A DNA stretch of 64,000 bases from Actinomycetes bacterium. GTDB taxonomy: Bacteria; Actinomycetota; Thermoleophilia; RBG-16-64-13. How positions within the stretch are numbered: the stretch's first letter is position 1; every line of letters starts with the position of its first letter. This document shows positions 3,867 to 46,238 of the stretch, piece by piece. Both the position numbers and the translations under genes were made by a program. Location of the stretch: positions 1 to 64,000 of the forward strand of contig JAGXFV010000034.1 of the NCBI GenBank assembly GCA_024637095.1, given 5' to 3'. A model generated the notes under the pieces. The model made no database searches. It saw only the letters and a list, made by a program, of their open reading frames with translations, and was not told the origin of the DNA.

Positions 3867-4130
3867 TCCTCTTCGTTTCATCCCTTGTTCTCTGAGCGTG
3901 TTGTGTTAGGAATGAGTGAGAGGTCGGTAAGAGGGCTCTTAGGACTGCCCAGCCGGGCATGCCGGTGCCGGGCCGGCGACATCAAGGCACCGGGGAAAGG
4001 AGAGAGTTTATGTGAGGCGCCATATGGGGCGAGCCGCGTTTGGGGGCAAGACTCGTCCGAAGCAAGCCTCGAGCCTCCGACAACTCTCAGTAACTCTCAG
4101 TAACTCTCAATTAACGATTGGAGTCAGAAT
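3867..4130 (+). promoter_or_regulatory. Structured leader region of the multicopper oxidase gene
   Basis: A 264-base non-coding stretch. It contains a perfect 8-bp inverted repeat CCGGTGCC (3962-3969) / GGCACCGG (3986-3993) with a 16-base loop, followed by GGGGAAAGGAGAGAG and then by three tandem decamers directly before the oxidase start. I could not match it to a known riboswitch class. An untranslated regulatory leader is possible. Confidence 0.3.
4081..4110 (+). repeat. Three tandem decamers upstream of the oxidase
   Basis: CAACTCTCAG, TAACTCTCAG and TAACTCTCAA lie head to tail, ending 20 bases before the ATG of the multicopper oxidase. The spacing of about one helical turn would suit a multimeric regulator, or the repeat may be a slippage product. 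Confidence 0.8.
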
Positions 4131-6803
4131 ATGCGATTAGGTGGCAGGGTCCGCTGGGTTTTGTTCGGCGGGTTGGCGCTTATGCTCCTCTTCGGTTCCG
4201 TGGGTGCGGCCCTCGCATGGGAGCCGGTGGAGGTTCCCAAGTACGTAGAGCCTCTGGTGATCCCGCCGGAGATGCCGGAGTCGCCGAAAGACGCCAATGT
4301 GGTCGGGCCGCGCAACTTCGACTACTACGAAATCGCGGTACGGCAGTTCGAGCAGTACATTTTGCCGACCGATTGGTCTGAGGCCAACGACATCGGCCCC
4401 ACGACTGTGTGGAGCTACGGAAGCGTAGACTTTCCTGAGACCTTCAACTATCCGGCTTTTACCATTGAAGCCGATGTGGGCACGCCGACTCGGGTCAAGT
4501 GGATCAACGACCTGGTCGACGAGAACGGCGACTACCTGCCGCATCTTTTGCCCGTAGATCAGACCCTTCATTGGGCCAATCCACCCGCGGGCCCCCAGGG
4601 GCGCGACATGGAAGGGACTAGTCAGGACCCCTACACGGGTCCCGTGCCCATCGTCAGCCACCTCCATGGCGCGGAAGTCACGGAAGACAGCGACGGCTAT
4701 CCCGAGGCCTGGTACCTGCCGGCCGCGGATAACATCCCCGCCGGCTACGCCCTGGGCGGCAGTCTCTACGATTCTTACAAGCAAGAGTTCGAGGATCGTT
4801 GGGGCCAGCCTTGGGAGCCCGGCACCGCCGTCTTCCAATACCTGAATCGGCAGCGGGCCACCACTCTCTGGTATCACGACCACTCGCTGGGTATCACCCG
4901 CTTGAACGTCTATGCGGGTCCCGCCGGTTTCTACCTTCTGCGCGGAGGCGACGATGACGTGATCACGACCGAGGGCGGTGAGGAAGCGGTTCTCCCGAGC
5001 CCGGCGCCCGCCATCGGTGACGAGGCCGGAACCGACTACTTCGAGATCCCCATCGTCGTGCAGACCCGTTCGTTCAATCAGGACGGCGAACTCTTCTATC
5101 CCGACAACCGCGAGTTCTTCGAAGGTCTGGAGGACGGAGCGCTCGACTCCATCCCCTTCCGGCCGGACTCGGAGATCGCCCCGATTTGGAATCCGGAGTT
5201 CTTCCCCGAGATCCCGGTGGTCAACGGCAAGACCTGGCCCTATCTGGAGGTCGAGCCCAAGCAGTACCGGTTCCGTCTGCTGAACGGGAGCCAGTCACGC
5301 TTCTACATCTTCCGCATGACGACCGAAGACGTTCCCGCTTCCTACGTGACGATCGAAGACCTCCCCGGCTCCGACCTGGACTTTTACCAGATCGGGGCTG
5401 ACGGCGGATTCCTGGCGGATGTCGCCGAGCAGGAAGACCTGCTGATGGGTCCGGCCGAGCGTGCCGACGTTATTGTCGACTTCTCCGAACTGCCGGTGGG
5501 CACCGAGGTTACGATGCTCAACCTCGCCGGCGACGAGCCCTTCGGTGGCGGTCAGCCGGTGGTCGACTTCCCCGCTGCCAATCCCCAGACCACGGGCCAG
5601 ATCATGAAGTTCGTGGTCGTCGCGGGCGAGGGGGCCGATCCAAGTACTCCCGTGGAAGAACTCATCCTGCCCGCGATCAACGGTCTGGGCGAAGCCGACG
5701 AGGTGCGGCATCTGAGCCTCAATGAGAAAGAGTCGGAGGAAGTCCTCGTCGAGGTGGACGAGGAGGGCAACTACGTGCTCGACGAATCGGGCCAGGTCAT
5801 CCTCGACGAAGAGGATGGCGCTCCCTTCGGGCCGAGCGAAGCCCTGCTTGGAACCTTCGAGCCGGCGACCGGCACTGCGGTGGCGCTGGACTGGGATGAG
5901 CCCATGACCGAGATGCCTCTCCAAGGCGCGGTCGAGACCTGGATGCTCCACAACTTTACCGCGGACGCCCACCCCATCCATCTGCACCTGGTGCAGTTCC
6001 AGGTGCTGGAGAGGCGGATCGAGTCGTCGGACTCTCCCCACTACAATCCCGCGGAGGGAATGGACATCGGAGACGTGGTGCCGGCGGTTGACACGGAGGA
6101 CGGCTGGAAGGACACAGTCATCTCCTACCCAGGTGAGGTCACCGAACTCAAGACCCGGTTCGACCTGGGCGGCCTCTTCGTGTGGCACTGCCACATCCTC
6201 GAACACGAGGACAACGAGATGATGAGGCCCTACTTCGTGGAGCACACGCGGGTGACGTATTTCGACGACGTTGCGCCGGATCACGAATTCGCTCCAGCCA
6301 TCGAAGCGCTGTCCCTGGCCTCGGTCGTGGACGGTTATGAGAACGGTGAGTTCGGGCTTTCCGACCCGGTTCTGCGGGCGCAGATAGCCAAGATGACCAC
6401 CATCGCCTACGGCCTGCACGATGAGGCGATCGACAATATGAACGATCCGACGTTCGGCGATGTGATGTACGAGGGCGAGGTCTATCCCTTCGACTACATC
6501 GAGGAAGCCGCCGAGGCCGGATTGGTGCTCGGTTACGTCAACGGCAACTTTGGTCCATACGATCAGCTGACGCGGATTCAGCTGGTGCGGATACTGGTGC
6601 GAGCGGCCGGCGGCCGGCTCGACACCCCGCCCGCGAGCTACCAAATGCCCTTCACGGATGTGGCGGCGATGGACCGCGAGGTTCTCGGCATCGCTCACTA
6701 CAACGAGCTGCTCGACGGAACCAGCGCGACCACGTTTGACCCCTACGGAACGGCGACCCGTGGTCACGTTTCCAAGATCCTCTACAATTCCCTGATGAAG
6801 TAG
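4131..6803 (+). CDS. Secreted multicopper oxidase with C-terminal SLH repeats
   Basis: An 890-residue exported copper oxidase of the CotA / bilirubin oxidase type. A signal peptide (residues 1-29) ends at about ALA-WEP. Copper ligands are HLH (177-179), WYHDH (247-251), HPIHLH (614-619) and HCHILEHEDNEMM (686-698). Cys687 and His692 would hold the type 1 copper, with Met697 as axial ligand. Residues about 715-890 are three SLH repeats (FAPAIEAL, FDYIEEAAEAGLVLGYVNGN, FTDVAAMDREVLGIA), which normally bind an enzyme non-covalently to secondary cell-wall polymer. An acidic insertion is present at about 525-570. Family members oxidise metals, phenols or bilirubin with O2; the substrate here is unknown. 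Next to it is a P460 lipoprotein, suggesting a surface redox function. The start is ATG 4131, with GGAG nine bases upstream. Confidence 0.92.
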   Translation: MRLGGRVRWVLFGGLALMLLFGSVGAALAWEPVEVPKYVEPLVIPPEMPESPKDANVVGPRNFDYYEIAVRQFEQYILPTDWSEANDIGPTTVWSYGSVDFPETFNYPAFTIEADVGTPTRVKWINDLVDENGDYLPHLLPVDQTLHWANPPAGPQGRDMEGTSQDPYTGPVPIVSHLHGAEVTEDSDGYPEAWYLPAADNIPAGYALGGSLYDSYKQEFEDRWGQPWEPGTAVFQYLNRQRATTLWYHDHSLGITRLNVYAGPAGFYLLRGGDDDVITTEGGEEAVLPSPAPAIGDEAGTDYFEIPIVVQTRSFNQDGELFYPDNREFFEGLEDGALDSIPFRPDSEIAPIWNPEFFPEIPVVNGKTWPYLEVEPKQYRFRLLNGSQSRFYIFRMTTEDVPASYVTIEDLPGSDLDFYQIGADGGFLADVAEQEDLLMGPAERADVIVDFSELPVGTEVTMLNLAGDEPFGGGQPVVDFPAANPQTTGQIMKFVVVAGEGADPSTPVEELILPAINGLGEADEVRHLSLNEKESEEVLVEVDEEGNYVLDESGQVILDEEDGAPFGPSEALLGTFEPATGTAVALDWDEPMTEMPLQGAVETWMLHNFTADAHPIHLHLVQFQVLERRIESSDSPHYNPAEGMDIGDVVPAVDTEDGWKDTVISYPGEVTELKTRFDLGGLFVWHCHILEHEDNEMMRPYFVEHTRVTYFDDVAPDHEFAPAIEALSLASVVDGYENGEFGLSDPVLRAQIAKMTTIAYGLHDEAIDNMNDPTFGDVMYEGEVYPFDYIEEAAEAGLVLGYVNGNFGPYDQLTRIQLVRILVRAAGGRLDTPPASYQMPFTDVAAMDREVLGIAHYNELLDGTSATTFDPYGTATRGHVSKILYNSLMK

Positions 6804-6848
6804 AGGGGAAGACCAGAGTAGCAAGCAAGCAGCATAAGGTAGCTAGGT

Positions 6849-6888
6849 CACGGGGGCCGGCCGCACGCCGGCCCCCGTGCTTCCTTTT
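6849..6888 (+). terminator. Rho-independent terminator after the multicopper oxidase
   Basis: A perfect 13-bp stem CACGGGGGCCGGC (6849-6861) / GCCGGCCCCCGTG (6867-6879), five-base loop, then CTTCCTTTT. The T-rich tail touches the predicted TTG start of the downstream lipoprotein at 6887. Confidence 0.85.
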
Positions 6889-7927
6889 GGCCCTATGGGC
6901 CCTGCTGGTCTTCGCGGTCCTGCTGGTCGGCTGCGGAGATGGGCCGATCACACTCCCGCCTGGGGAGGGGGTGGATCCGGCCACGCTCGACCTGGAGGAC
7001 GACGCTTTGGCCGCGCAGTCCCTGCTCGCCTACGCTCGGCTCAACGACTACGCGAATTCCTGGACGTCTCTTGGTCCGGAAGGCGGCTACGCGGGTCATC
7101 CCAACCATGCCTCGCGGCTGGTGACGTACCTGGATCCTGTCGCGGCCGAATGGCTGGAAGGCGCGTCGAAGGATGGTGCCGGCGACCCCGCAGCCATACC
7201 CGAAGGCGCCCTCATCCTGCAGGAGGGTTACTCCTCGGAAGGCGAGTTTCAGGACATCTGGATGATGCTCCACCGTGAGGGTTACGACCTAACCGGACGG
7301 GAGTGGTTTTGGGCCAATCTCTCGCCCGAGGGAAAGGTGCGGGCTTCGGGCAAGCCGGAACAGTGTTGGTTCTGCCATTTCTCCATGCGGTCCAACGAGA
7401 TGGTCTTTTCTTTCCCCGTGCCGGGCGTGGTTCCGCTCCGGGGAGAAGGCGAGGGCGAGAGCGAGGGAACCGAAGCCGCCGTCGAGATCAGCCAGGCCGA
7501 TCGGCGTGTGGCCGAAGAACTCTGGCGGTCATTGGAGGAGGCCGACTACCGGGAGGAGTGGACCACCGGACTCAAGGACCCCGGCTACGCCGCGGTTCGT
7601 GATGCTCGAAGCGTCCACAGCGAGTCGCTGGCGCTGTATCTAAACGACGCTGCGGCCGACTGCCTGGAAGCCACTCCGGAAACGATGCCGGACGGCGCCG
7701 TGCTGCTGCTCGAGCATCTGGACGAACAAGGCAACGCTCAGGCCTTAGACGTGATGTGGAAACGGAAAGGCTACGATCCCGAGAACGGGGACTGGTTCTG
7801 GGCGGAGTTCGCGGTTGACGGCCGGTTGGAGAAGGCCGGCGCCGGCGCCGGTTGCCGAGACTGTCACCAGGCCGCCCTGACCAACGACTACCTCTTTCGC
7901 TACCCTGTGGCGATCGTCCACTTATGA
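6887..7927 (+). CDS. Lipoprotein with two cytochrome P460 domains
   Basis: A 346-residue exported haem protein. Residues 1-16 form a lipoprotein signal (LVFAVLLVGC, acylated Cys16). Two P460-like domains follow: about 45-175, ending in CWFCH (160-164), and about 200-345, ending in CRDCH (323-327). Each has the family pattern WFWANLSPEGKV or WFWAEFAVDGRL before its CXXCH. P460 cytochromes carry a cross-linked c-type haem and oxidise hydroxylamine or handle NO; whether the lysine cross-link is kept here cannot be judged by eye. The duplication is unusual, as family members are mostly single-domain. TTG 6887 is the only in-frame start that keeps the signal peptide, and it lies in the tail of the preceding terminator with no clear ribosome binding site. 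It probably works with the SLH oxidase upstream. Confidence 0.82.
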   Translation: MALWALLVFAVLLVGCGDGPITLPPGEGVDPATLDLEDDALAAQSLLAYARLNDYANSWTSLGPEGGYAGHPNHASRLVTYLDPVAAEWLEGASKDGAGDPAAIPEGALILQEGYSSEGEFQDIWMMLHREGYDLTGREWFWANLSPEGKVRASGKPEQCWFCHFSMRSNEMVFSFPVPGVVPLRGEGEGESEGTEAAVEISQADRRVAEELWRSLEEADYREEWTTGLKDPGYAAVRDARSVHSESLALYLNDAAADCLEATPETMPDGAVLLLEHLDEQGNAQALDVMWKRKGYDPENGDWFWAEFAVDGRLEKAGAGAGCRDCHQAALTNDYLFRYPVAIVHL

Positions 7928-8029
7928 ACGGATTGAGGCGCCCGTGAGGCGACCGGTCAGTCCCTTTCGGCGGCTGGGACCTCCGGCGCGAGACGATCGC
8001 CGGTAGCGGCGTGCCGCGAGGCTCGACCC

Positions 8030-8476
8030 TTAGCGCCGGGGGCGGAGGAGCAGTGCCCCGAGCAGCGAAATCGCCTCCAAAGTAACGAGGGTCGTTAGCG
8101 ATCCGGTCAGAAGATAGGCCAAGATGCCTGCGTGCGCCACCCCGTCAATCGAGAACAGCCCGGCGATGTAGGTGCTCACCGGCGTGCTCATCGGTGTCCA
8201 GGCCTCCCGATTTCGGAACACGACGTTTAGTGTGAAGAGCGCGGCGATGACGAAGGCGCCCTCCATCAGGAAACTGGTGACGGCGGGGTCTTCCACCGAG
8301 ATCGACCCGAGGAGCACCACGGCCAGATAGACAAGCGGAGAGGCCAAGCCGATGGCCGCCCAGAGGAGAACCCGGTTGAACCAGGAGGTGCCTTCTTGGG
8401 TGGCGGCCGGGACGCCTTTGGCCGAGACCGCGCCTGCGTAGCGTCTCTCCCGCCGTTCGGCCTTCCTCTTTGCCAC
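8030..8476 (-). CDS. Small integral membrane protein of unknown function
   Basis: A 148-residue protein I do not recognise. A basic N-terminus (VAKRKAERRERRYAG) is followed by about four hydrophobic segments (VLLWAAIGLASPLVYLAVVLL, AFVIAALFTLNVVF, an amphipathic SIDGVAHAGILAYLLTG, LVTLEAISLLGALLL). I chose GTG 8476 because GGGAGGA lies just upstream. The frame stays open to a possible start at 8647, but that would overlap msrB and add an unconvincing N-terminus. It converges with the P460 gene and is divergent from msrB. Confidence 0.55.
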   Translation of the reverse strand: MAKRKAERRERRYAGAVSAKGVPAATQEGTSWFNRVLLWAAIGLASPLVYLAVVLLGSISVEDPAVTSFLMEGAFVIAALFTLNVVFRNREAWTPMSTPVSTYIAGLFSIDGVAHAGILAYLLTGSLTTLVTLEAISLLGALLLRPRR

Positions 8477-8620
8477 CCGGTCCTCCCGTCGCTTGCGTAG
8501 GTAACCGGGGCAGACTACCACGCGCCCCCCGCGTTTCGTGTACCGAACCTCCCAGGTGGGAAAAAGACCTGCAGAACAAAACTTTCGGACGGCTCGGCGG
8601 CCGAGGAATGGAGTGCCTTC

Positions 8621-9088
8621 ATGGCGCAAGAGAAGACAGAGAAGCAATCACTCTCTCCGGAAGAGCTCAAGCAGCGTTTGACCTCCGAGCAATATCACGT
8701 GACTCAGGAGCAGGGGACGGAGCGACCTTTTGCCAACCGGTATTGGGACTTCAAAGGGAGAGGCGTCTACCACTGCGTGGTCTGCGGCAACGATCTGTTT
8801 GGCTCCTACGCCAAGTACGATTCGGGGACGGGGTGGCCGAGCTTCTACGAGCCTCTGACCGCCGGCGCGGTGGGGGAGCATGAGGACCGCGGACTCTTGA
8901 TGGTGCGTACCGAGGTGGTCTGCGGGCGTTGCGGGTCGCATCTAGGGCACGTCTTCAACGACGGACCCGAGCCCACCGGTCTGCGCTACTGCATGAACTC
9001 GGCCTCGCTCGACTTCGAGGAGCGCGACGATGAGGGCCGGGCTCTGCGTGGCGGAGGCGCCCGTGCCGAGAAGGGGGAGGAGGCCTGA
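8621..9088 (+). CDS. msrB: Peptide-methionine (R)-S-oxide reductase
   Basis: A 155-residue MsrB, which reduces methionine-R-sulfoxide in proteins using thioredoxin-type donors. It carries the zinc ligands CVVCGNDLF (about residues 46-54) and [12 protein letters not shown] (about 98-109). The catalytic cysteine lies in [13 protein letters not shown], near residue 124; Met replaces the usual Ile after it. The N-terminal [20 protein letters not shown] is typical. Its stop overlaps the msrA start (TGATG at 9086-9090), so the two are translationally coupled. No signal peptide is seen, so it is cytoplasmic. Confidence 0.95.
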
Positions 9089-9819
9089 TGTTCCGTTTGG
9101 GGCGAAACGAAGGCGCGGCGGCGCGCGCCGAAACCGGCGCTGGGGAGGAGCAGGCCCGGCTGCTGGAGTTCCCGCCGATAGACCTCGAGATTCCGGAGCA
9201 GGTCCAAACGGCGACCTTCGCCCTGGGCTGATTCTGGGGTCCTGACGCCCAGTTCGGGGCGTTACCTGGAGTGCTGAGAACCCGCGCGGGTTATGCGGGG
9301 GATCCGCGCAAGGATCAGCCCACCTACCACGACCTTGGCCTTCATGCGGAGACGCTCGAGGTCGATTTCGATCCAGCGGCCATTTCTTACGAGGAACTGC
9401 TGGACATCTTCTGGAACAGCCACAACCCGACATCTGCCGCCTGGTCGCCGCAGTATCGCTCCGCCGTCTTCACCCACGACTCGGCCCAGGCCGAAGCGGC
9501 CCGCAGGTCGGCCGACCGTTACGCCGGACTGCTGGGACGGGAGGTGCGGACCGAGATCACCCCGTTGAGTTGTTTTTGGCCGGCGGAGGAGTATCACCAA
9601 AAGTATCGGCTACAGCACAACCGGCTGCTGCGGAACGAGTACCGGGAGATCTATCCGGTCTTCAAGGACTTCCTGAACTCGACCGCAGTGGCGAGAGTCA
9701 ACGGTTACCTGGGAGGCTACGGCTCGTCCGCGCAGTTGGACCAGGAACTCGACCTCCTGGGGCTGGGCGAGCGGGGGAGGAAGGAGCTGCGCTCGAAGCT
9801 GGGGTCACGTCGACGCTGA
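9088..9819 (+). CDS. msrA: Selenocysteine-containing peptide-methionine (S)-S-oxide reductase
   Basis: MsrA reduces methionine-S-sulfoxide; the active residue sits in the motif GCFW. Here the frame from ATG 9088 reads ATFALG, then TGA at 9229-9231, then FWGPDAQFGALPGV, so codon 48 is TGA exactly at the catalytic Cys. Reading through gives one intact 243-residue MsrA, with homology on both sides of the TGA and in one frame (RTRAGYAGD, PTYHDLG, EELLDIFWNSHNP, AEEYHQKY). A stem-loop suited to a bacterial SECIS follows the TGA. Cys162 is the only cysteine and may serve as the resolving residue. The N-terminus (residues 1-40) is longer than in minimal MsrA. A gene caller would start it wrongly at 9271. 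Sec-containing MsrA proteins are known in some bacteria and algae. It overlaps msrB by one base. Confidence 0.88.
9229..9264 (+). promoter_or_regulatory. UGA selenocysteine codon and bacterial SECIS hairpin in msrA
   Basis: The TGA codon is at 9229-9231. Nineteen bases after it, a six-base apical loop AGTTCG (9251-9256) closes an 8-bp stem: TGACGCCC (9243-9250) with GGGCGTTA (9257-9264), including one G-U pair. The loop has G as its second base. This fits the known bacterial SECIS rules: a hairpin 16-37 bases after UGA, a small loop, and a G in the first two loop bases. SelB would bind here. Confidence 0.8.
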
Positions 9820-9832
9820 GCGACGCTGACCC

Positions 9833-10213
9833 CTAGAGCGCCGGGCCGACCACGGCACCCTCGATGGCCGGGTTGCCGCCCGCGTTGACGCCGGTGAAGA
9901 CACCGGTGGCCTCGACCAAGTCGCCCTCATACAGTTCGCTGGTGTCGGTTTCCACCTTGACCAGGCTGTCGTCCTCGCAGCGGAAGGGGTTCACGAAGAC
10001 GAAATCATCTTCGACGCGTTTGACCCAGCCATAGAGGGTCACTTCGGTTCCGACCGGGCCGCCGTCTTCGACCAGGTCACAGTAGTCCACGGTTTGTCCA
10101 ACGGGCACGGACACGGGCTCTGGGGGAGCCGAGGGGGAAGCTTGGACCGCCGCAACCACGACGATCATCAGGACGAGGGCGAGCGCGAGGGTGGTGAGGA
10201 TCCGACGCATCAT
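9833..10213 (-). CDS. Small exported protein, possible OB-fold
   Basis: A 126-residue secreted protein of unknown function. The signal peptide (MMRRILTTLALALVLMIVVVAAVQAS) ends near residue 26. The mature part has short beta-rich stretches (GTEVTLYGWVKRVEDDFVFVNP, LVKVETDTSELYEGDLVEATGVFTG) that resemble a single-domain OB-fold of the tRNA_anti / NirD-like kind, and two cysteines (DYCDL and FRCEDD). ATG codons at 10213 and 10210 are both possible; the second has better spacing (six bases) to GGAG. It is driven by a good promoter about 110 bases upstream and converges with msrA. Confidence 0.65.
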   Translation of the reverse strand: MMRRILTTLALALVLMIVVVAAVQASPSAPPEPVSVPVGQTVDYCDLVEDGGPVGTEVTLYGWVKRVEDDFVFVNPFRCEDDSLVKVETDTSELYEGDLVEATGVFTGVNAGGNPAIEGAVVGPAL

Positions 10214-10324
10214 ATGCTCCTTTTCGGCACGAGTTTTACCTACGTGCCCGGCCCCCATCGGCCATCTGTCGATGCGCCGTCCGCTTCTCGACCCAGAGAA
10301 GCGCCGGACGAATTAACCAAAACT

Positions 10325-10352
10325 AGTATAACGGTTGTGAAGGATTTGGCAA
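10325..10352 (-). promoter_or_regulatory. Predicted sigma-70 type promoter for the small exported protein
   Basis: On the minus strand TTGCCA (10352-10347) and TATACT (10330-10325) are separated by 16 bases. Both boxes match the consensus at five of six positions. It leaves a leader of about 105 bases before the start codon. Confidence 0.6.
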
Positions 10353-10417
10353 GAGGAGCCGAGTGCATCTCCGCATTCTTCTTGCGTCCGAGGCCCCGAT
10401 CGGGAAAGCTGTCAAGG

Positions 10418-11014
10418 ATGAAGGCTCCTCCGCAAATGAGTGAATGGGCGTTCGAGTTGCGCGAAACTGCTATTGAGGCCGGATTTGTCTCCTTTGGACT
10501 CGTAACCCCCGAAAAACTGACAGCCTTGCCCGACACCGCCGACCCGGCCCGCCATCTTGTCGGCTACCGCTCCATCGTGCTCGTGGCCGCGCCGGGGGAG
10601 AGGGTTACCAACCTCGGCCCGAAAAGCCAGGCTCTGCTGGACGACCGGCTTTCTCTGGGGCTTGCCCGCCTGCGCCAGGATATCTCCGGCGAGGGTTATG
10701 CGGCACTTCCATTGGTCGATTCCCGGCTCTCCTTGCCTCGCCTGGCGGTGGCCGCCGGAATGGGCGCGCTCGCTCCCAACGGGATGCTCGTGGTCAACCG
10801 CTACGGCCTCAATCTGTATCTGCTGGGTCTCATAACGGAGGCCCCGCTGCCGGCGACGCCCTTCCCCGGTCTAGTGGCCGACACCACCATCTGCCGGTCC
10901 TGCCGCCTTTGTCTGGACGACTGCATCGCCACCACCGAGCAGGTCGGGTTCAATCGAGAGTGGTGCTCCGGTTGCGCCGAGTGCGTTTCCCGTTGCCCTC
11001 TGCAGGCGAGGTAG
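10418..11014 (+). CDS. QueG-like 8Fe-8S ferredoxin-type protein
   Basis: A 198-residue iron-sulfur protein. The N-terminal part (FELRETAIEAGFVSFGLVTP, then a YRSIVLVAAPGE strand) resembles the start of epoxyqueuosine reductase-like proteins, but the cobalamin-binding middle is much reduced. The C-terminus has two 4Fe-4S motifs, CRSCRLCLDDC and CSGCAECVSRCP, typical of a bacterial ferredoxin domain. It is far shorter than true QueG (about 350-380 residues), so queuosine synthesis is unlikely; an electron-transfer or small-molecule reductase role is more plausible. ATG 10418 was chosen; ATG 10436 is an alternative. Upstream in-frame extension to 10094 overlaps the exported-protein gene and is rejected. 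Confidence 0.7.
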   Translation: MKAPPQMSEWAFELRETAIEAGFVSFGLVTPEKLTALPDTADPARHLVGYRSIVLVAAPGERVTNLGPKSQALLDDRLSLGLARLRQDISGEGYAALPLVDSRLSLPRLAVAAGMGALAPNGMLVVNRYGLNLYLLGLITEAPLPATPFPGLVADTTICRSCRLCLDDCIATTEQVGFNREWCSGCAECVSRCPLQAR

Positions 11015-11050
11015 CGCCGATTTCAGGGTCTCCCTGGATTAGAGCTGCGT

Positions 11051-11767
11051 TCAGCGCTGCCCGCTCGAGGCTGGGGAGCGGATGAAGTCCGCAATCACGC
11101 TGATCACCTCGGCCTGCACTTCCTCGTCTGAGCGGTCCGCCCCTTTGCGCAACTCGTAGGAGTGGCCGCCGCCTTCTACGAAGTGAACCCGCGGAGGGGA
11201 ATCGAGCGTCTCTAGGACCTCCCGCAGAAGCTCCGGTCTGCAGAAGGGATCGCGGGAGCCTTGGATGAAAAGGCTGGGCACGTCGATTCGCCGCAAGGGT
11301 TCGGTTTTCAGCCTGTCTGAGCGGCCGGGCGCGTGCAGGGGATACCCCAGAAACACCAGGCCGGCCGCCAGCAGGCCCTCGGCCTCGTGGCCGCGGGAGG
11401 CGAGCTCCGCCGCGACCCGGGCTCCCAACGACTTGCCCCCCAGAAACATAGGGCCGGCGGGGCATACCTCGTCGTCGGCCAATGCGTCGTGGGCATGTCG
11501 GTAACTAGACTCCAGCACTCGCGGCGAATCCGGAGAGGACGCTTCCCGCTCTCGGTAGGGGAAGTTGAAACGAAGCACCGAAGCCACATCCGCCTGGGCA
11601 AGACCGAGCGCCACCGCCTCGAGGAGCGGGTGGCGGAGGTCGTTGTTCTGGCCATGCGCCAGGATCAGCCCAGGCGTGACTCCCGGACGGCACCCTTCCG
11701 GCCGGTTGACGAGGGCGCTCACGTCCGCGGCCCCATCCACCGGTATCCGCCTCTCTCGAACGATCAT
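11051..11767 (-). CDS. Alpha/beta hydrolase (dienelactone hydrolase / TEX30-like)
   Basis: A 238-residue cytoplasmic hydrolase. The strand LILAHG carries the oxyanion region, GGKSLGARVA (about residues 118-127) the nucleophile elbow with serine, SLFIQGSRDPFC the acid, and EGGGHSYE the catalytic histidine. Proteins of this KANL/TEX30-like type hydrolyse esters of unknown nature. ATG 11767 has GAGGGG upstream; the much longer open frame to 12193 runs antisense to the coiled-coil gene and is not used. It is convergent with the QueG-like gene. Confidence 0.8.
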   Translation of the reverse strand: MIVRERRIPVDGAADVSALVNRPEGCRPGVTPGLILAHGQNNDLRHPLLEAVALGLAQADVASVLRFNFPYREREASSPDSPRVLESSYRHAHDALADDEVCPAGPMFLGGKSLGARVAAELASRGHEAEGLLAAGLVFLGYPLHAPGRSDRLKTEPLRRIDVPSLFIQGSRDPFCRPELLREVLETLDSPPRVHFVEGGGHSYELRKGADRSDEEVQAEVISVIADFIRSPASSGQR

Positions 11768-11878
11768 CGCTTTCCCCTCACTCCGGTCTGAGCTTGATAG
11801 ATAGACATAACCTTCCCTCAACCGGCTTCTGCTATCGTTCCTGTTGTCCGCAATCCGGCTGAGGACGGAGTCGCGCAT

Positions 11879-12142
11879 ATGGAACGCATCATCGGTAACC
11901 TCGAGAAGGTCAAGCTCAAGCTCGACGAGGCCTTCTTTTACCTTGACGAGATCGAGGAATTGGTCGAGGAAGACGGTCTGGACCAGGAAGAGGGCGGACG
12001 CGTGGCGGCGGCCGGAGATAGATTGCGGGAAGAGCTCGGTAATCTGACCACCAAGGTGGCCGAACTGCAGAACATCCTGGAGATGCTGGGCGAAGATGAG
12101 ACCGGGGAAGACGTGGTCGACGGCACGGTGGAAGAGGTCTGA
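11879..12142 (+). CDS. Small acidic coiled-coil protein
   Basis: An 87-residue protein of no known family. It is strongly acidic and almost wholly helical with heptad-like spacing (MERIIGNLEKVKLKLDEAFF, then LREELGNLTTKVAELQNILEML). It lacks cysteine and any signal peptide. It lies five bases before the DUF523 gene, so both are probably co-transcribed, and it may act as a scaffold or partner. Start ATG 11879. Confidence 0.6.
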   Translation: MERIIGNLEKVKLKLDEAFFYLDEIEELVEEDGLDQEEGGRVAAAGDRLREELGNLTTKVAELQNILEMLGEDETGEDVVDGTVEEV

Positions 12143-12146
12143 GCGG

Positions 12147-12662
12147 TTGACTGAGCGTGGGCCGGCGGGCAGGGAGGAAACCTCCGGCCGCAAAGAGCCC
12201 CTTCTGGTGAGCGCCTGCCTCCTGGGGCTCTCGACCCGTTACGACGGCGGGGATGAGCGTCGCGACGCCGTAAGCGCTCTGGGGGCACGCTTTTTTCTGG
12301 TACCGGTGTGCCCCGAGCAACTAGGAGGTCTGCCCACGCCCCGTCCCGCGGCGGAGATCGTCTCGGGTGACGGCGACGACGTGTTCGAGGGCAGGGCGCG
12401 AGTGGAGACCGCGGACGCGGTCGATGTATCCTCTGCGTACGTGAGGGGGGCCGAGGAGTCGGTCAAACTGGCGGGCATCCTGGGCGCACGCCAAGCGGTC
12501 CTAAAAGCACGCAGCCCCTCTTGTGGTTGCCGCGAGATCTACGACGGATCCTTTCGGGGTGTGTGCCGGCCGGGAAGGGGTGTCGCGGCGGCTGCCCTGG
12601 CCAGAGCCGGGGTAAGCTCATGGGACGAAGATGATGTGGCCGAAGGGCGCTTCGGCCGGTAG
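12147..12662 (+). CDS. DUF523 family protein
   Basis: A 171-residue DUF523 protein. Diagnostic motifs are VSACLLGLSTRYDG (about residues 21-34), VPVCPEQLGGLPTPRPAAEI and KARSPSCGCREIYDG, with the conserved cysteines in CLLG, VCPE and SCGC. The role is unsettled; members occur alone or fused to DUF1722. TTG 12147 starts four bases after the preceding stop. GAGG lies upstream at suitable distance. The downstream PP-loop gene follows closely, so these may share a thiol or sulfur theme. Confidence 0.8.
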   Translation: MTERGPAGREETSGRKEPLLVSACLLGLSTRYDGGDERRDAVSALGARFFLVPVCPEQLGGLPTPRPAAEIVSGDGDDVFEGRARVETADAVDVSSAYVRGAEESVKLAGILGARQAVLKARSPSCGCREIYDGSFRGVCRPGRGVAAAALARAGVSSWDEDDVAEGRFGR

Positions 12663-39807: not shown

Positions 39808-41154
39808 ATGAAGCGTATGTCGGTTTTCTGGGGCTGCACGATCCCCGCCCGCTTCCCGTTCATCGAGAAGTCGACTCGCCTGGTGCTGGGCGATATGGGC
39901 GCGGAGGTGGTCGAAGTCGAGGGCTATACCTGCTGCCCCGAAGGGACGCTGGTCAAAGCGGTCGACGAGGACGCCTTCTACGTGACCGCCGCGCGCAACC
40001 TGGCCCTGGCCGAGACCGCCGAACTGCCCATCCTCACTCCCTGCAACGGCTGCTATTCGACCTTCAAATCGACCAAGGCGGATCTAACCAGCCAGTGGCG
40101 CCGCCGCGCCCGTGTGAACGAGCTGCTGGCCGAAGTCGATCTCGCCCTGGGCGAGGGCCCCGAGGTGCGCCATTTCGCCGAGTGGATGTTCGACGAAGTG
40201 GGGCCGGCCGCGCTCACCAAGCGGGTCAGCAAGCCCTTCTGGGGAATGCGCCTGGGCGTGCACTACGGCTGCCACCTGCTCCGACCCAGCCCGGCGGTGC
40301 GCTGGGATAGCTCGACCAATCCCACCAAGTTGGAGGATCTGGTGCGGGCGCTGGGGGCCACGGTGGTGGACTACGAGACCAAGATGGACTGCTGCGGCGG
40401 CGCCCTCGACCGGGTGGGCGAGCGCGAGGGCGCTCTGGACTTCTGCCGACGCAAGCTGGCCGATCTGGCCGCGCACGAAGTGGACGCCCTGGTGGTGGTC
40501 TGCCCCAGCTGCTTCCAGCAGTTCGATCTCAACCAGGCGAGCATCCAGCGGCAGGCTAAGGCGCAGGGCATACCGGTCTTCTACTACGCGGAGTTGGTGG
40601 CCTTGGCTATGGGTCATCAACCTGAGGAGCTCGCTCTGGGCATGCACCGCGTGGGAGTCGAGGGCTTTCTGGAGAAGTGGGAGGGCTGTATCGAGGACCG
40701 GCAGGAGATCGCCCGCGATTTCAACGTGGCCGAACTGCAAAAATGCAGCGAGTGCCGCGCCTGCGAAGAGGACTGCCCGGTGGCCAAGGTGCAGGAGGAC
40801 TTCAGTCCCACCCAGATCATCGGCGAAATCCTGCAGGGCGATTTGGACGGTCTGCTGGAACGCGGGGACCTGTGGCGCTGCGTCGAGTGCTACACCTGCT
40901 ACGAGAAGTGCCACAGCCGGCTGGGAATGGCCGAGGTGTTCCGCAGGTTGAAAGAACTCGCGCTGCGCAAGGACAAAGTGCCCGCGCAGGTGCTCTCCGC
41001 ATACGAGACGTTCCTCAGCACGGGCGCTCTGGGTGAGCCCCGAGAGAGTCAGCGCAAGAAGCTGGGCCTCGAACCGATGCCCCCGCGCGGCCATGAAGCC
41101 CTGACCCGGATCTTGAACCGGCGCAGCGCCGAAGAGAAAGGTGACGCGGCGTGA
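39808..41154 (+). CDS. HdrBC-like fused iron-sulfur oxidoreductase
   Basis: A 448-residue fusion. The N-terminal HdrB-like part (about 1-275) has two CCG domains: WGCTIP, YTCCPEG, PCNGCYSTF and then YGCHLLRPS, MDCCGGALD, VCPSCFQQF, which in methanogens hold the non-cubane 4Fe-4S clusters for disulfide reduction. The C-terminal HdrC-like part has CSECRACEEDCPV and CVECYTCYEKC, two ferredoxin clusters. No transmembrane segment. Its stop overlaps the glutaminase gene (GTGA), so it is cotranscribed with a three-part glutamate synthase and probably supplies or takes electrons there. Not membrane-bound GlpC/GlcF, which lack this order. Confidence 0.85.
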   Translation: MKRMSVFWGCTIPARFPFIEKSTRLVLGDMGAEVVEVEGYTCCPEGTLVKAVDEDAFYVTAARNLALAETAELPILTPCNGCYSTFKSTKADLTSQWRRRARVNELLAEVDLALGEGPEVRHFAEWMFDEVGPAALTKRVSKPFWGMRLGVHYGCHLLRPSPAVRWDSSTNPTKLEDLVRALGATVVDYETKMDCCGGALDRVGEREGALDFCRRKLADLAAHEVDALVVVCPSCFQQFDLNQASIQRQAKAQGIPVFYYAELVALAMGHQPEELALGMHRVGVEGFLEKWEGCIEDRQEIARDFNVAELQKCSECRACEEDCPVAKVQEDFSPTQIIGEILQGDLDGLLERGDLWRCVECYTCYEKCHSRLGMAEVFRRLKELALRKDKVPAQVLSAYETFLSTGALGEPRESQRKKLGLEPMPPRGHEALTRILNRRSAEEKGDAA

Positions 41155-42359
41155 TCGACCGACCCGCACGCAAATACGGCGGACTGACCTTGCCGGGGAC
41201 CCGGATTCCCGACGTGGGCCGGCGCCCCAGCTACACGGTCGAGGCCGAGGAGGGCATCCTCGGCAACTGTGGCCTGATGGGCGTCTGCGACGAGGCCGGT
41301 GAACGCATGAGCGGCGAACTCGCGGTGCGCAGCATGGCCTCCATGCACGACCGGGGCAACGGACTGGGCGGCGGCTTCGCGGGCTACGGCATCTATCCCG
41401 AGCACCCCGATCATTACGCCTTCCACATGATGTACGCGGACGAGGATGCCAGGCAGGACACCGAGTTCTACCTGGCCCGCCAATTTGCCATCGACCACGA
41501 GGAGCCCATCCCCACGCGGGCGGTGCGCGGCATCCAGGACGAGCCCCTCCTGCACCGCTACTTCTGCCGGGTGGATGCTGAGCGCCTCCAGGAGACTCAG
41601 CTCTCCGAGGCTGATTACGTGGTCCATGCCTTCATGGATATCAACTCCGGCATCGATGGGGCTTTCGTGGCCTCGGCCGGGCGTAATATGGGCGCCTTCA
41701 AAGGCGTCGGCTTCCCCGAGGAGATCGGCGAGTTCTACCGGCTGGACGAGTACGCGGGCTGGACCTGGACCGGTCACGGCCGCTTTCCCACCAACACGCC
41801 GGGCTGGTGGGGAGGGGCGCATCCTTTCTGCCTGCTCGACTACTCCATCGTGCACAACGGCGAGATCAGCTCCTACGGCATCAACAAGCGCTACCTGGAG
41901 TCGCACGGTTACCAGCTCACGCTACGCACCGACACCGAGGTGGTCACCTACCTGTTCGACCTGATGCTGCGCCGGCACGAACTGCCGGTGGAGATCGCCT
42001 GCCGCGCCCTGGCGGCGCCCTTCTGGAAGGACATCGATCTGATGGCCGCGGACGACAAGGAGTTCTACACCGCCCTGCGCACTGTCTACGGTCCGGGCCT
42101 GCTCAACGGACCCTTCGCCGTGGTGCTGGGCATGGCGGACGGCATGGTGGCCCTCAACGACCGGATCAAGCTGCGCCCGCTGGTGGCGGCGCGCGACGGC
42201 AACCGCGTCTACGTGGCCAGCGAGGAGTCGGCCATCCGCGAGATCTGTCCCAAGCCCGAGAAGAGCTGGATGCCCCGGGCCGGCGAGCCCGTGATCGCAC
42301 GACTCAGAGGGGCGGCGTTCGGCGCGGCTCCGCAGAGCGTGCCTGCCGAGGTGAACTAG
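41151..42359 (+). CDS. Glutamate synthase, glutaminase (class II amidotransferase) subunit
   Basis: A 402-residue stand-alone N-terminal domain of GltB, releasing ammonia from glutamine. The class II nucleophile would be Cys40 in ILGNCGLMGV. That cysteine is not at the N-terminus, so the first 39 residues must be removed as a propeptide, as in large GltB. RGNGLGGGFAGYGI, TGHGRFPTNTPG and YSIVHNGEISSYG form the glutamine pocket. GTG 41151 overlaps the HdrBC stop. It acts with the FMN and GXGXG subunits that follow. Confidence 0.9.
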   Translation: MIDRPARKYGGLTLPGTRIPDVGRRPSYTVEAEEGILGNCGLMGVCDEAGERMSGELAVRSMASMHDRGNGLGGGFAGYGIYPEHPDHYAFHMMYADEDARQDTEFYLARQFAIDHEEPIPTRAVRGIQDEPLLHRYFCRVDAERLQETQLSEADYVVHAFMDINSGIDGAFVASAGRNMGAFKGVGFPEEIGEFYRLDEYAGWTWTGHGRFPTNTPGWWGGAHPFCLLDYSIVHNGEISSYGINKRYLESHGYQLTLRTDTEVVTYLFDLMLRRHELPVEIACRALAAPFWKDIDLMAADDKEFYTALRTVYGPGLLNGPFAVVLGMADGMVALNDRIKLRPLVAARDGNRVYVASEESAIREICPKPEKSWMPRAGEPVIARLRGAAFGAAPQSVPAEVN

Positions 42360-43892
42360 ATGGCTGAAGTGACGTTCACGAGACCGGAGTTCCGGGTCAG
42401 GATCGATAAGGAGCTGTGCCAACAGTGCGGGCGCTGCGCCCACCAGTGCGGCTGGGGCGTACACAAGATGGACGAGGAGACCGGCTATCCCGTGCCCGAC
42501 TCCTCCAAATGCGGCGCCTGCCACCGCTGCGTGACTTTCTGCCCGGCGCAGGCGATCCTTGTGGAGAAGAACCCGCTGGCCTACAAGGGTTCGGACAGCT
42601 TCTCCCCGGAGCTGCGCAAAGCCGTATGGCGGCAGGCGGAGACGGGCGGGGTGCTTCTGGCCGGGATGGGCAACGACAAACCTTACCTCCGCATCTTCGA
42701 TCACCTGCTGTTGGACGCCTGTCAGGTCACGAACCCCTCGATAGACCCGCTGCGCGAGCCCATGGAGCTGCGCACCTTCCTGGGGCGCAAACCGGACAAG
42801 GTCGAGGTGGAGTACGTCCCGGACGGCGACGGCGTCAAACCGAAGCTGAAGACCGAGATGGACCGGCTGCTCCAGATCGAGACCCCGATCGTCTTCGGCG
42901 GCATGAGCTACGGCTCGGTCTCGCTCAACGTCCACCGGTCTTTGGCGATGGCGGCCAAAGAGCTGGGCACCCTGATGAACACCGGCGAGGGCGGCCTTCA
43001 CGCCGACCTCCAGCCCTACCAGGACAATATCGTGGTGCAGTGCGCCTCGGGGCGGTTCGGGGTGCACGCGGACTATCTGAACGCCGGCTGCGCCGTGGAG
43101 ATCAAGATCGGTCAGGGCGCCAAGCCGGGGATCGGCGGCCACCTGCCGGGCGAGAAGATCAACGAGGAGGTCTCGGTCACGCGGATGATCCCGCAGGGCA
43201 CGGACGCCCTTTCGCCCGCGCCGCATCACGACATCTACTCCATCGAGGACCTGCGCCAGCTGATCTACGCCCTCAAGGAAGCCACGGGCTACAAGCCGGT
43301 GTCGGTCAAGATCGCCGCCGTCCACAACGTGGCCGCGATCGCCTCGGGCGTGGTGAGGGCCGGCGCCGACATCGTGTATCTGGACGGCTTCCGCGGGGGT
43401 ACCGGCGCGGCCCCGACGGTGATTCGGGACCATGTGGGCATTCCGATCGAGCTCGCGATCAGCGTGGTGGATCAGCGTCTACGCGACGAAGGCATCCGCA
43501 ACCGGGCTTCGGTGATTGCGGCCGGAGGCATCCGCAGCTCCGCCGACGTGGCCAAGGCCATCGCCCTGGGCGCCGACGCCTGCGCCATCGGTTCCGCTTT
43601 GCTGGTGGCCCTCGGCTGCCATCTGTGCCAGAAGTGCCACACGGGTTCCTGTTCCTGGGGTATCTGCACGCAGAAGCCGGAGCTCACCCGCCGTCTGGAT
43701 CCGGAGTGGGGAGCCGAGCGAATCGTCAACCTGGTCACCGCATGGAGTCATGAGATCGCGGAGATTCTGGGGGCGCTCGGGGTGAACGCGGTCGAATCCT
43801 TGCGCGGCAGCCACGAACGGCTTCGCAGCTTGGGTCTCGACCAGCAAACTCAGGAAATCCTCGGCGTGAAGCCCGCCGGGATCGGCCATTAG
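42360..43892 (+). CDS. Glutamate synthase, ferredoxin-FMN (central) subunit
   Basis: A 510-residue archaeal-type glutamate synthase. Residues 1-75 carry two 4Fe-4S motifs (CQQCGRCAHQCGW and CGACHRCVTFCPA). The FMN barrel (about 160-470) has FGGMSYGSVSLNVHRSLA, MNTGEGGLH, KIGQGAKPGIGGHLPGEKI, SPAPHHDIYSIEDL, LDGFRGGTGAAP and AGGIRSSADV. CHLCQKCHTGSCSWGICTQ likely binds the 3Fe-4S cluster. It makes glutamate from 2-oxoglutarate with ammonia channelled from the upstream subunit. Start ATG directly at the preceding stop. Confidence 0.93.
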   Translation: MAEVTFTRPEFRVRIDKELCQQCGRCAHQCGWGVHKMDEETGYPVPDSSKCGACHRCVTFCPAQAILVEKNPLAYKGSDSFSPELRKAVWRQAETGGVLLAGMGNDKPYLRIFDHLLLDACQVTNPSIDPLREPMELRTFLGRKPDKVEVEYVPDGDGVKPKLKTEMDRLLQIETPIVFGGMSYGSVSLNVHRSLAMAAKELGTLMNTGEGGLHADLQPYQDNIVVQCASGRFGVHADYLNAGCAVEIKIGQGAKPGIGGHLPGEKINEEVSVTRMIPQGTDALSPAPHHDIYSIEDLRQLIYALKEATGYKPVSVKIAAVHNVAAIASGVVRAGADIVYLDGFRGGTGAAPTVIRDHVGIPIELAISVVDQRLRDEGIRNRASVIAAGGIRSSADVAKAIALGADACAIGSALLVALGCHLCQKCHTGSCSWGICTQKPELTRRLDPEWGAERIVNLVTAWSHEIAEILGALGVNAVESLRGSHERLRSLGLDQQTQEILGVKPAGIGH

Positions 43893-43897
43893 GCAAA

Positions 43898-44797
43898 ATG
43901 AACGACGACAATCACGGAGAGAGAATGTCACCCGATTCGGCCACCATCAGGCGCGTGCCCACCGGTCCCGCCCGGCGGGGGCCAATAGGTGCCGAGCCCG
44001 CCCGCAAGGTTGCGGGGCAGCCGGGGACCGACAAGGGCGCGGTGAGCCACGAGGGCACCCAGGCCCGCATCGATGCGGGCGGCGTCTACTACAAGACGCT
44101 GAACGAGCAGATCCGGGAGGAGATGCTGAACGGCGCCCAGACGGTAATCCTCGAGAACGTCAACGGCCAGCGCTATATCGGCGGAGGGCTTTCCGGAGAA
44201 GACGTCCGCGTGGTCATCAACGGGGTGCCGGGCAACGATCTGGCCACTTTCATGACCGGTCCCACGCTGATCGTCAATGAGAATGCGCAGGACGGCGTGG
44301 CCAACACCATGAACAGCGGCCTGGTGGTCATCAACGGGGACGCCGGCGACGTGCTGGGATACGGCATGCGCGGAGGCCGACTATACGTGCGCGGCGACGT
44401 GGGCTACCGCGTGGGCATCCACATGAAGGCCTACGAGGATCAGCGCCCGGCGATGGTGATCGGCGGCAAGGCACGGGACTTCTTTGGAGAGTACATGGCC
44501 GGGGGTGAGTTGGTGCTGCTCGGCCTGGGCAGCGACGGCGAGGACATCGTGGGTTCCTACCTGGGCACGGGTATGCACGGGGGAGTCATCTTCGTGCGCG
44601 GCGAGGTGGCCGAGCACCAGTTGGGCAAAGAGGTGAGCATCGCCCCGCTCTCGGCCGCAGAGCAGAGTCGGGTGGAGGAACTGGTGCGCGATTTCGCCGG
44701 CTGGATGGGGCTGGATGCAGAGGAAATCCTGGAGCGCCGCTTTATCAAGATCTTCCCTTATACTCATCGGCCCTATGGCAAGCTCTACGCCTACTAG
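43898..44797 (+). CDS. Glutamate synthase, GXGXG domain subunit
   Basis: A 299-residue protein whose part from about 90 onward is the right-handed beta-helix of GltB domain 3 (GXGXG). It has repeated glycine turns GQRYIGGGLSGEDVRV, LVVINGDAGDVLGYGMRGG, LYVRGDVGYRVGIHMKAY and SYLGTGMHGGVIFVRG. It holds the ammonia channel in place in whole GltB. The first 60 residues are disordered-looking and Pro/Arg-rich. ATG 43898 lies five bases after the FMN subunit gene; ATG 43925 is a possible shorter start. Confidence 0.9.
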   Translation: MNDDNHGERMSPDSATIRRVPTGPARRGPIGAEPARKVAGQPGTDKGAVSHEGTQARIDAGGVYYKTLNEQIREEMLNGAQTVILENVNGQRYIGGGLSGEDVRVVINGVPGNDLATFMTGPTLIVNENAQDGVANTMNSGLVVINGDAGDVLGYGMRGGRLYVRGDVGYRVGIHMKAYEDQRPAMVIGGKARDFFGEYMAGGELVLLGLGSDGEDIVGSYLGTGMHGGVIFVRGEVAEHQLGKEVSIAPLSAAEQSRVEELVRDFAGWMGLDAEEILERRFIKIFPYTHRPYGKLYAY

Positions 44798-44906
44798 CCA
44801 TAGGTACAAGTACCAGGGTCTATCTTTAGCCAACTGATTGTTGTCCAATAGGCAGGTTAGCCGCTACCCTGGGATTCGCCCCGTGAGATTTTCAAGGAAG
44901 GTGCGC

Positions 44907-46238
44907 ATGAGCAAAGGCATGACCAGAGAAGACGTACTCAAATACGTCAAGGACAACGAGGTGCGGTTCATCCGCCTGTGGTTCACCGACATCCTCGGAT
45001 TCCTCAAGAGCTTCGCCATCACCGATCAGGAACTTGAAGGCGCGTTCGATGAGGGCATGGGTTTTGACGGATCCTCCATCGAGGGCTTTGGCCGGATCCA
45101 GGAATCGGACATGATCGCCTGGCCGGACCCGAGCACCTTCGTCATGCTGCCCTGGCGCAGAGAGGCCGGCGGTACCGCCCGCATGTTCTGCGATATCAAG
45201 AACCCGGATGAGACCCCCTTCGAAGGCGATCCCCGGAACGTGCTCAAGAAGACTCTGCAGCGGGCGGCGGACAAGGGTTACACCATGTACGTGGGCCCTG
45301 AACTCGAGTACTTCTACCTGCGCGATAACTGCAGCACCCAGGTGATCGACTCCGGCGGCTACTTCGACCTGACTCCCCTGGACGTCGCCTCCGATCTACG
45401 CCGCAAAACCATCATCGCCATGCAGGAACTGGGCATCCAGGTCGAGTATTCGCACCACGAGGTGGCTCCCTCGCAGCACGAGATCGATCTGCGCTACAAG
45501 GAAGCCGGGCTGATGGCCGACCAGGTGATGACCTACCGGCTGACCGTCAAGGAGATAGCCCAGGCGCACGGTATCTACGCCACCTTCATGCCCAAGCCGA
45601 TCTTCGGTGAGAATGGCTCCGGCATGCATACGCATCAGTCCTTGTTCGAAGGCCCGCGGAATGTTTTCTTCGACGCCAACGACGAGTACAACCTGTCGAA
45701 GGAAGGCAAGTCCTACATCGCCGGCTTGGTCAAGCATGCTCCCGAACTGGCGCTGGTGACCAATCAGTGGGTCAACTCCTATAAGCGCCTGGTGCCGGGC
45801 TACGAAGCGCCCATCTACGCTTGTTGGGCCCGCCGCAACCGCTCCGCCCTGGTGCGGGTGCCCATGTACAAGCCGGGCAAGGAGCAGGCGACGCGCGTCG
45901 AGCTGCGTAACCCGGACCCGGCCTGCAATCCGTACCTGGCCTTTGCCGTCATGCTGGGTGCCGGCCTCAAAGGGATGGAGGAGGGCTACGAGCTGCCGCC
46001 CGAGGCCACCAACAACATCTATGAGATGACCGCTCAAGAGCGCGAGGATCAGGGCATCGAGTCGTTACCCGAGGACCTCTACGACGCCATCAACAAGTTC
46101 AAAGAGTCAGAGGTGGCCCGCGAGGTGCTGGGCAACCATGTCTGCGAGAGTCTGATCATCAACAAGCAAAAAGAGTGGGACGAGTACAAGGCTATCGTGA
46201 CGCCTTACGAGCTGGAGCGGTACCTGCCGGTTCTCTAG
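44907..46238 (+). CDS. glnA: Glutamine synthetase type I (GSI-alpha)
   Basis: A 443-residue glutamine synthetase. Motifs are FTDILGFLKSFAI, MGFDGSSIEGFGRIQESDM, VGPELEYFY, SHHEVAPSQHEIDLRY, GSGMHTHQSLF, VNSYKRLVPGYEAP and NPYLAFAVML. The length and absence of the GSI-beta adenylylation segment (the NLYDLPPE-type Tyr region is replaced by YELPPEATNNIYEM) fit the alpha subtype controlled by feedback rather than adenylylation. ATG 44907 has AAGGAAGG upstream; a 23-residue longer frame exists. It follows the glutamate synthase genes by 109 bases and ends in a strong terminator. Confidence 0.96.
   Translation: MSKGMTREDVLKYVKDNEVRFIRLWFTDILGFLKSFAITDQELEGAFDEGMGFDGSSIEGFGRIQESDMIAWPDPSTFVMLPWRREAGGTARMFCDIKNPDETPFEGDPRNVLKKTLQRAADKGYTMYVGPELEYFYLRDNCSTQVIDSGGYFDLTPLDVASDLRRKTIIAMQELGIQVEYSHHEVAPSQHEIDLRYKEAGLMADQVMTYRLTVKEIAQAHGIYATFMPKPIFGENGSGMHTHQSLFEGPRNVFFDANDEYNLSKEGKSYIAGLVKHAPELALVTNQWVNSYKRLVPGYEAPIYACWARRNRSALVRVPMYKPGKEQATRVELRNPDPACNPYLAFAVMLGAGLKGMEEGYELPPEATNNIYEMTAQEREDQGIESLPEDLYDAINKFKESEVAREVLGNHVCESLIINKQKEWDEYKAIVTPYELERYLPVL

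Follow-up and report, generated by a model that had tools for sequence, protein, structure and literature searches.

Proteins of the P460 fold differ in function according to three deciding positions in the haem pocket, namely the cross-link Lys, the distal carboxylate and the capping residue (2025 review, PMC11928373). Every cross-link-deficient P460 studied so far is inactive and does not oxidise hydroxylamine, and no characterised cytochrome c'-beta oxidises NH2OH; NO binding is a property of c'-betas whose pockets are hydrophobic, and the Nitrosomonas europaea P460 acquires guaiacol peroxidase activity through the substitution Lys70Ala (PMC11928373). The characterised c'-beta haems are ligand-binding sites and not typical electron carriers (PMC11928373). 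Our literature search found no paper on a tandem P460 protein, nor on a naturally occurring partnership between P460 and a multicopper oxidase (MCO) that carries an SLH anchor.

Two neighbouring genes in the window (the whole stretch of 64,000 nucleotides analysed here, from an uncultured actinobacterium) encode such proteins. An initial annotation had placed a wall-anchored MCO at 4131-6803 and a lipoprotein with two P460 domains at 6887-7927, and both sets of coordinates proved to be exact. The features of the locus are as follows.

4131-6803, forward strand: MCO-SLH open reading frame of 890 amino acids, with signal, multicopper oxidase and SLH repeats
4131..4217, forward strand: Sec-like signal peptide of the MCO, sequence MRLGGRVRWVLFGGLALMLLFGSVGAALA, boundary set by eye
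4218..6245, forward strand: CotA/PhsA-like catalytic part of the MCO (Pfam PF07731, NCBIfam PhsA, PDB 7z5p/9bd5/CotA)
6261..6803, forward strand: wall anchor of SLH repeats at the C-terminal end of the MCO, matched by Pfam SLH in two stretches (4.3e-17)
6849..6879, forward strand: GC-rich hairpin of 13 bp followed by CTTCCTTTT, terminator- or attenuator-like (scan and fold)
6887..7927, forward strand: tandem Cytochrome_P460-fold lipoprotein (open reading frame, Pfam PF16694 twice, dN/dS 0.15), start codon uncertain
6986..7456, forward strand: domain 1 (cap: His; cross-link position: Gln; carboxylate position: Trp), haem motif CWFCH at 7364-7378
7487..7924, forward strand: domain 2 (cap: His; cross-link position: Leu; carboxylate position: Asp), haem motif CRDCH at 7853-7867

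The MCO matches Pfam Cu-oxidase_2 (PF07731) at 2.6e-20, its best NCBIfam model is PhsA with a match of 1.8e-62 that lies under the cut-off of that model, and its closest PDB entries are the CotA-type laccases and 7z5p (best E 2.4e-66). All four copper-binding motifs (HLHG, HDH, HPIHLH and HCHILEHEDNEMM) align with the laccases of the PDB, and the ligands of the T1, T2 and T3 coppers are complete, including HCHxxxHxxxxM. A third SLH repeat can be discerned by eye at about residues 870-888. Related MCOs occur in 25 of the 399 genomes of the class that were searched, and it is only in the window genome (G000) and its sister (G001) that they carry SLH repeats; those of the other proteins whose end is readable stop 6-25 residues past the last copper motif, or 114 residues past it in two cases. 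The latter two (L106 and L113, from G057 and G067) possess a C-terminal extension of 114 residues that is not SLH. Tat-type RR signals (SRRQF/TRRQF-type) are found in the MCO relatives L032, L033 and L035. At window 4082-4111, directly upstream of the MCO gene, lie three 10-bp repeats in tandem (AACTCTCAGT), which G001 has not kept. The window genome encodes many further SLH proteins, as well as CsaB-family genes at two loci (PF04230; wall-polymer pyruvylation), the latter being assigned at family level only; anchoring through the SLH repeats is therefore plausible.

The second protein carries a lipobox (LLVGC) and is recognized by the Pfam Cytochrome_P460 model in two stretches (1.1e-19), each of the two domains containing a CxxCH motif. 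A profile search against the PDB retrieved P460 and c'-beta structures with a best E of 2.8e-9, and a Foldseek search placed P460/c'-beta entries in all of the top eight positions (prob 1.00); because the underlying AlphaFold model is of low confidence (pLDDT 65, ten sequences), the latter result lends the P460 fold weak support. It is the sole P460 gene of the window genome, in which Ccm-type haem-c assembly genes (CcmC/CcmF) and CcsB are also found. Surface location of both proteins, as the initial annotation had it, is supported by the signal peptide, the SLH repeats and the CsaB-family genes for the MCO and by the lipobox for the haem protein. Both proteins are strongly acidic (pI 4.1 for MCO-SLH, 4.4 for the tandem P460), which could reflect salt adaptation. 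The dN/dS values against the sister genome (oxidase domain 0.13, SLH part 0.11, tandem P460 0.15) reveal that both genes are real, are under purifying selection and thus are maintained.

Both genes lie on one strand, with 83 bp between them. The intervening hairpin has a folding energy of -33.3 kcal/mol, with z scores of -3.7 in the window and -2.9 in G001, and a core stem of 10 bp is kept in the sister species. If it terminates transcription, the P460 gene would be expressed via read-through. The N-terminus of the lipoprotein is uncertain, since the sole standard start codon, TTG at 6887, lies in the T-tail of the hairpin, is preceded by no visible Shine-Dalgarno sequence and lacks conservation, the first start in the sister being a different TTG; the 5' stretch of the gene is also far less constrained than the remainder (dN/dS about 0.5 over 41 codons).

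The three pocket positions were read by alignment through the PDB members of the family. At the position of the cross-link Lys (Lys70 of NeP460), domain 1 has Gln and domain 2 has Leu, while Lys is present in 27 of 27 single-domain relatives; the tandem lineage thus lost the Lys that the wider His-capped group has kept. The carboxylate position (Glu96/Asp102) appears to be occupied by Trp in domain 1 and Asp in domain 2 according to the HMM alignment and the anchors Gly82/Ala109; in the MAFFT alignment, the NeP460 column is shifted by one. The cap is His in all 27 single-domain relatives and in all four domains of the window and sister proteins, and the sister species is identical to the window at all three positions in both domains. 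As the capping residue of the solved members is Phe or Arg, the His cap marks a pocket type that has no solved example among those listed. A cytochrome c'-beta has a five-coordinate haem able to bind NO or CO; in the tandem protein, the cap His could serve as an iron ligand. With the cross-link Lys missing from both domains, the name P460 appears to be right for the fold and family and not for the cofactor; the P460 fold in combination with a predicted haem c that has no cross-link Lys corresponds to the sequence definition of a cytochrome c'-beta. A different pocket was noted in the same family, where the single-domain P460 lipoprotein of G004 (L085:6182-6781) has a His cap together with Lys and Glu at the deciding positions; it combines the Lys and carboxylate seen in active enzymes with a His cap and is a candidate for a genuine His-capped P460.

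The initial annotation had read the pair as a joint system for hydroxylamine or NO oxidation, in which the P460 protein would oxidise these compounds and the MCO would serve as the O2-reducing sink. In favor of this, one may cite the P460 fold itself, the Asp at the carboxylate position of domain 2 and a quinol-type NO reductase encoded in the genome (down to 1e-166 against solved NOR). The loss of Lys from both domains in both species, taken together with the inactivity of all cross-link-deficient P460s tested (PMC11928373), renders it highly improbable, and oxidation of hydroxylamine by the tandem lipoprotein has accordingly been rejected on the residues of the pocket. Some kind of proton-coupled chemistry might still be conceivable, as domain 2 has Asp at the proton-relay position. 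What survives of the proposed NO handling is possible NO binding; a joint nitrogen-oxide system is unlikely because the pair occurs only in this genus and both domains are devoid of the Lys. An aa3-type oxidase, including a CoxB-like subunit II reading frame with one CxxCH, accompanies the quinol NO reductase in the window genome, so that both O2 and NO plausibly play a part in the life of the organism. The NO reductase gene (contig 39; L082:5708-7999) is named by no NCBIfam model. Searches of the organism's own genome gave no family match for HAO-like multihaem cytochromes or AMO, results that count for little given that the controls of both searches were silent as well.

Conservation of the pair in related genomes had been put forward as the touchstone of a joint function, and its outcome is divided: the pair is kept in the sister genome and absent elsewhere in the class sample. 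The window genome comprises 2.47 Mb in 49 contigs; its nearest relative is the Soudan_30 MAG (G001), of the same genus and recorded as Actinomycetota, whose name suggests the Soudan iron mine, MAGs from which have been described (PMC8042283). Conservation within the genus hence refers to these two genomes, and the wider searches covered 99 relatives, 399 genomes of the class and a 396-genome sample of the phylum. In G001, the entire stretch 4131-12499 aligns at about 87%, the MCO-P460 pair being kept as is everything else; adjacency in the sister species adds little for this reason. Among the 99 relatives, the tandem P460 is found only in G000 and G001. The same holds for the class, in which 37 of 399 genomes have a P460-like domain and none outside the genus has the MCO-P460 adjacency; at least four (G004, G495, G624, G700) possess both families on different contigs. 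A conserved two-gene unit was thus rejected beyond the genus, tandem P460 and MCO-SLH being confined to G000 and G001 among the 399.

The Pfam Cytochrome_P460 domain is present in six of the 396 genomes sampled from the phylum. Distant relatives of the P460 domains are single-domain proteins from Deinococcota, Thermodesulfobacteriota, Myxococcota, Spirochaetota, Planctomycetota and Pseudomonadota; no window-like MCO was detected in their examined flanks, and the genomes of six distant relatives yielded single-domain matches and no tandem P460. A plasmid search returned one weak single-domain match only. In the phylogenetic tree, the two domains group together with weak support (90/73) within a clade of mixed phyla, and they stand apart from the class-typical P460 proteins (100/100). 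This placement suggests, without proving it, acquisition from outside followed by duplication; given the weak grouping, internal duplication as the origin of the two domains is not firmly claimed.

The surroundings of the pair contain two further observations. The downstream MsrA gene (window 9145-9819; L029:5264-5938 in the sister) has in both species a catalytic motif GUFWG that includes an in-frame TGA (window 9229-9231) and looks like a candidate selenoprotein gene; the Pfam helical domain of selenoprotein MsrA also scores on it, slightly below the cut-off, and a hairpin UGACGCCC...GGGCGUUA lies 3' of the TGA in both species, unmatched to a SECIS model. At window 39808-46235, a split glutamate synthase is encoded, of which the CCG/Fe-S, the class-II amidotransferase and the FMN synthase domain each have a gene of their own; a glutamine synthetase gene comes next.

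We regard it as moderately probable that the locus encodes two separate surface redox proteins which are neighbours in one genus, a surface laccase or metal oxidase and a c'-beta-like di-haem lipoprotein. A CotA-like laccase would have become wall-anchored by the gain of SLH repeats and, as we infer, would oxidise small reduced compounds outside the cell, such as phenolics or Mn(II)/Fe(II)/Cu(I), while reducing O2 to water via its four coppers. Each lipoprotein domain would carry one covalent haem c, and because the distal site of this haem is predicted to be uncrosslinked, the protein may act like a cytochrome c'-beta, reversibly binding NO or other diatomics and possibly serving as a weak peroxidase; hydroxylamine oxidase activity would not be expected of it. 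If the two proteins cooperate at all, they would do so by contributing jointly to protection or oxidation chemistry on the outside of the cell, and not through a dedicated electron chain. The most economical reading is that they act independently or share no more than a protective or oxidative setting. Pulling against this separation are the adjacency kept in both genomes of the genus, on the same strand at 83 bp with read-through possible, and the SLH fusion and the tandem domain, neither of which any other sampled genus possesses; the latter two features may point to a shared role.

The same facts are the mainstay of a coupled surface chain, in which the di-haem lipoprotein would relay electrons, drawn either from the membrane or from a substrate, to the wall-anchored MCO for the reduction of O2, both proteins being predicted at the surface. 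Direct coupling is possible, with adjacency in one genus as its evidence; yet the synteny of the whole block, the terminator-like hairpin between the genes, the genomes with the two families on different contigs, the ligand-binding nature of c'-beta haems (PMC11928373) and the tethering of one protein to the membrane and the other to the wall leave it unlikely. Of the joint surface redox system initially proposed, location and genus-level adjacency thus stand, while coupling is weakly supported, the pair being absent from the class genomes sampled outside the genus and no evidence of electron transfer having been found. Less likely again is an arrangement in which a peroxidase-like or NO-handling, Lys-less lipoprotein (distal His plus Trp/Asp) shares substrates or electrons with the wall laccase, the two using H2O2/NO and O2, respectively. 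At the other extreme, the two may be unrelated surface genes that have stayed in synteny and are functionally quite unconnected. The confinement of the pair to one genus, the hairpin, and flanking genes (DUF488, MsrB, MsrA, housekeeping) with no obvious common theme speak for such accidental neighbours, but the shared strand and close spacing, and an oxidative-stress theme into which the downstream methionine sulfoxide reductase genes would fit, speak against them; we consider this doubtful, albeit deserving of some weight.

When the locus is compared with known systems, all copper motifs and the domain order of the window MCO are those of the CotA spore-coat laccase and the PhsA o-aminophenol oxidase, and actinobacterial homologues of this type are 47-62% identical to it. 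It differs from CotA/PhsA in its fused SLH wall anchor, its Sec-type signal and its strong acidity, and the fusion illustrates the conversion of a laccase into a wall protein. The lipoprotein domains have the fold, the haem-c motif and the missing cross-link Lys in common with cytochrome c'-beta (Thermus thermophilus 7ead, Methylococcus capsulatus 6hih, N. europaea 7s5o), from which they differ in the union of two domains in one lipoprotein, in the His cap in place of the Phe or Arg of the solved members, and in Asp or Trp in place of Gly or Ala at the carboxylate position. With cytochrome P460 (N. europaea 2je2/2je3, M. capsulatus 6hiu, 6amg) they share the fold, whereas the window protein is tandem, has the His cap and replaces by Gln/Leu the Lys that its sequence relatives keep. 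These relatives, the single-domain 'cytochrome P460 family' proteins (PHG...VKE...CxxCH) of many phyla, resemble the window domains in the His cap and CxxCH at up to 40% identity, and the closest of them also share a PENGDWFW-type motif; unlike the tandem protein, they are single-domain and retain the Lys. They indicate a broad, uncharacterised His-cap clade with a pocket type absent among the solved members in the 2025 review, and a natural di-domain P460 fold without the cross-link Lys, set beside relatives that have it, offers a comparison for Lys as a switch of function.
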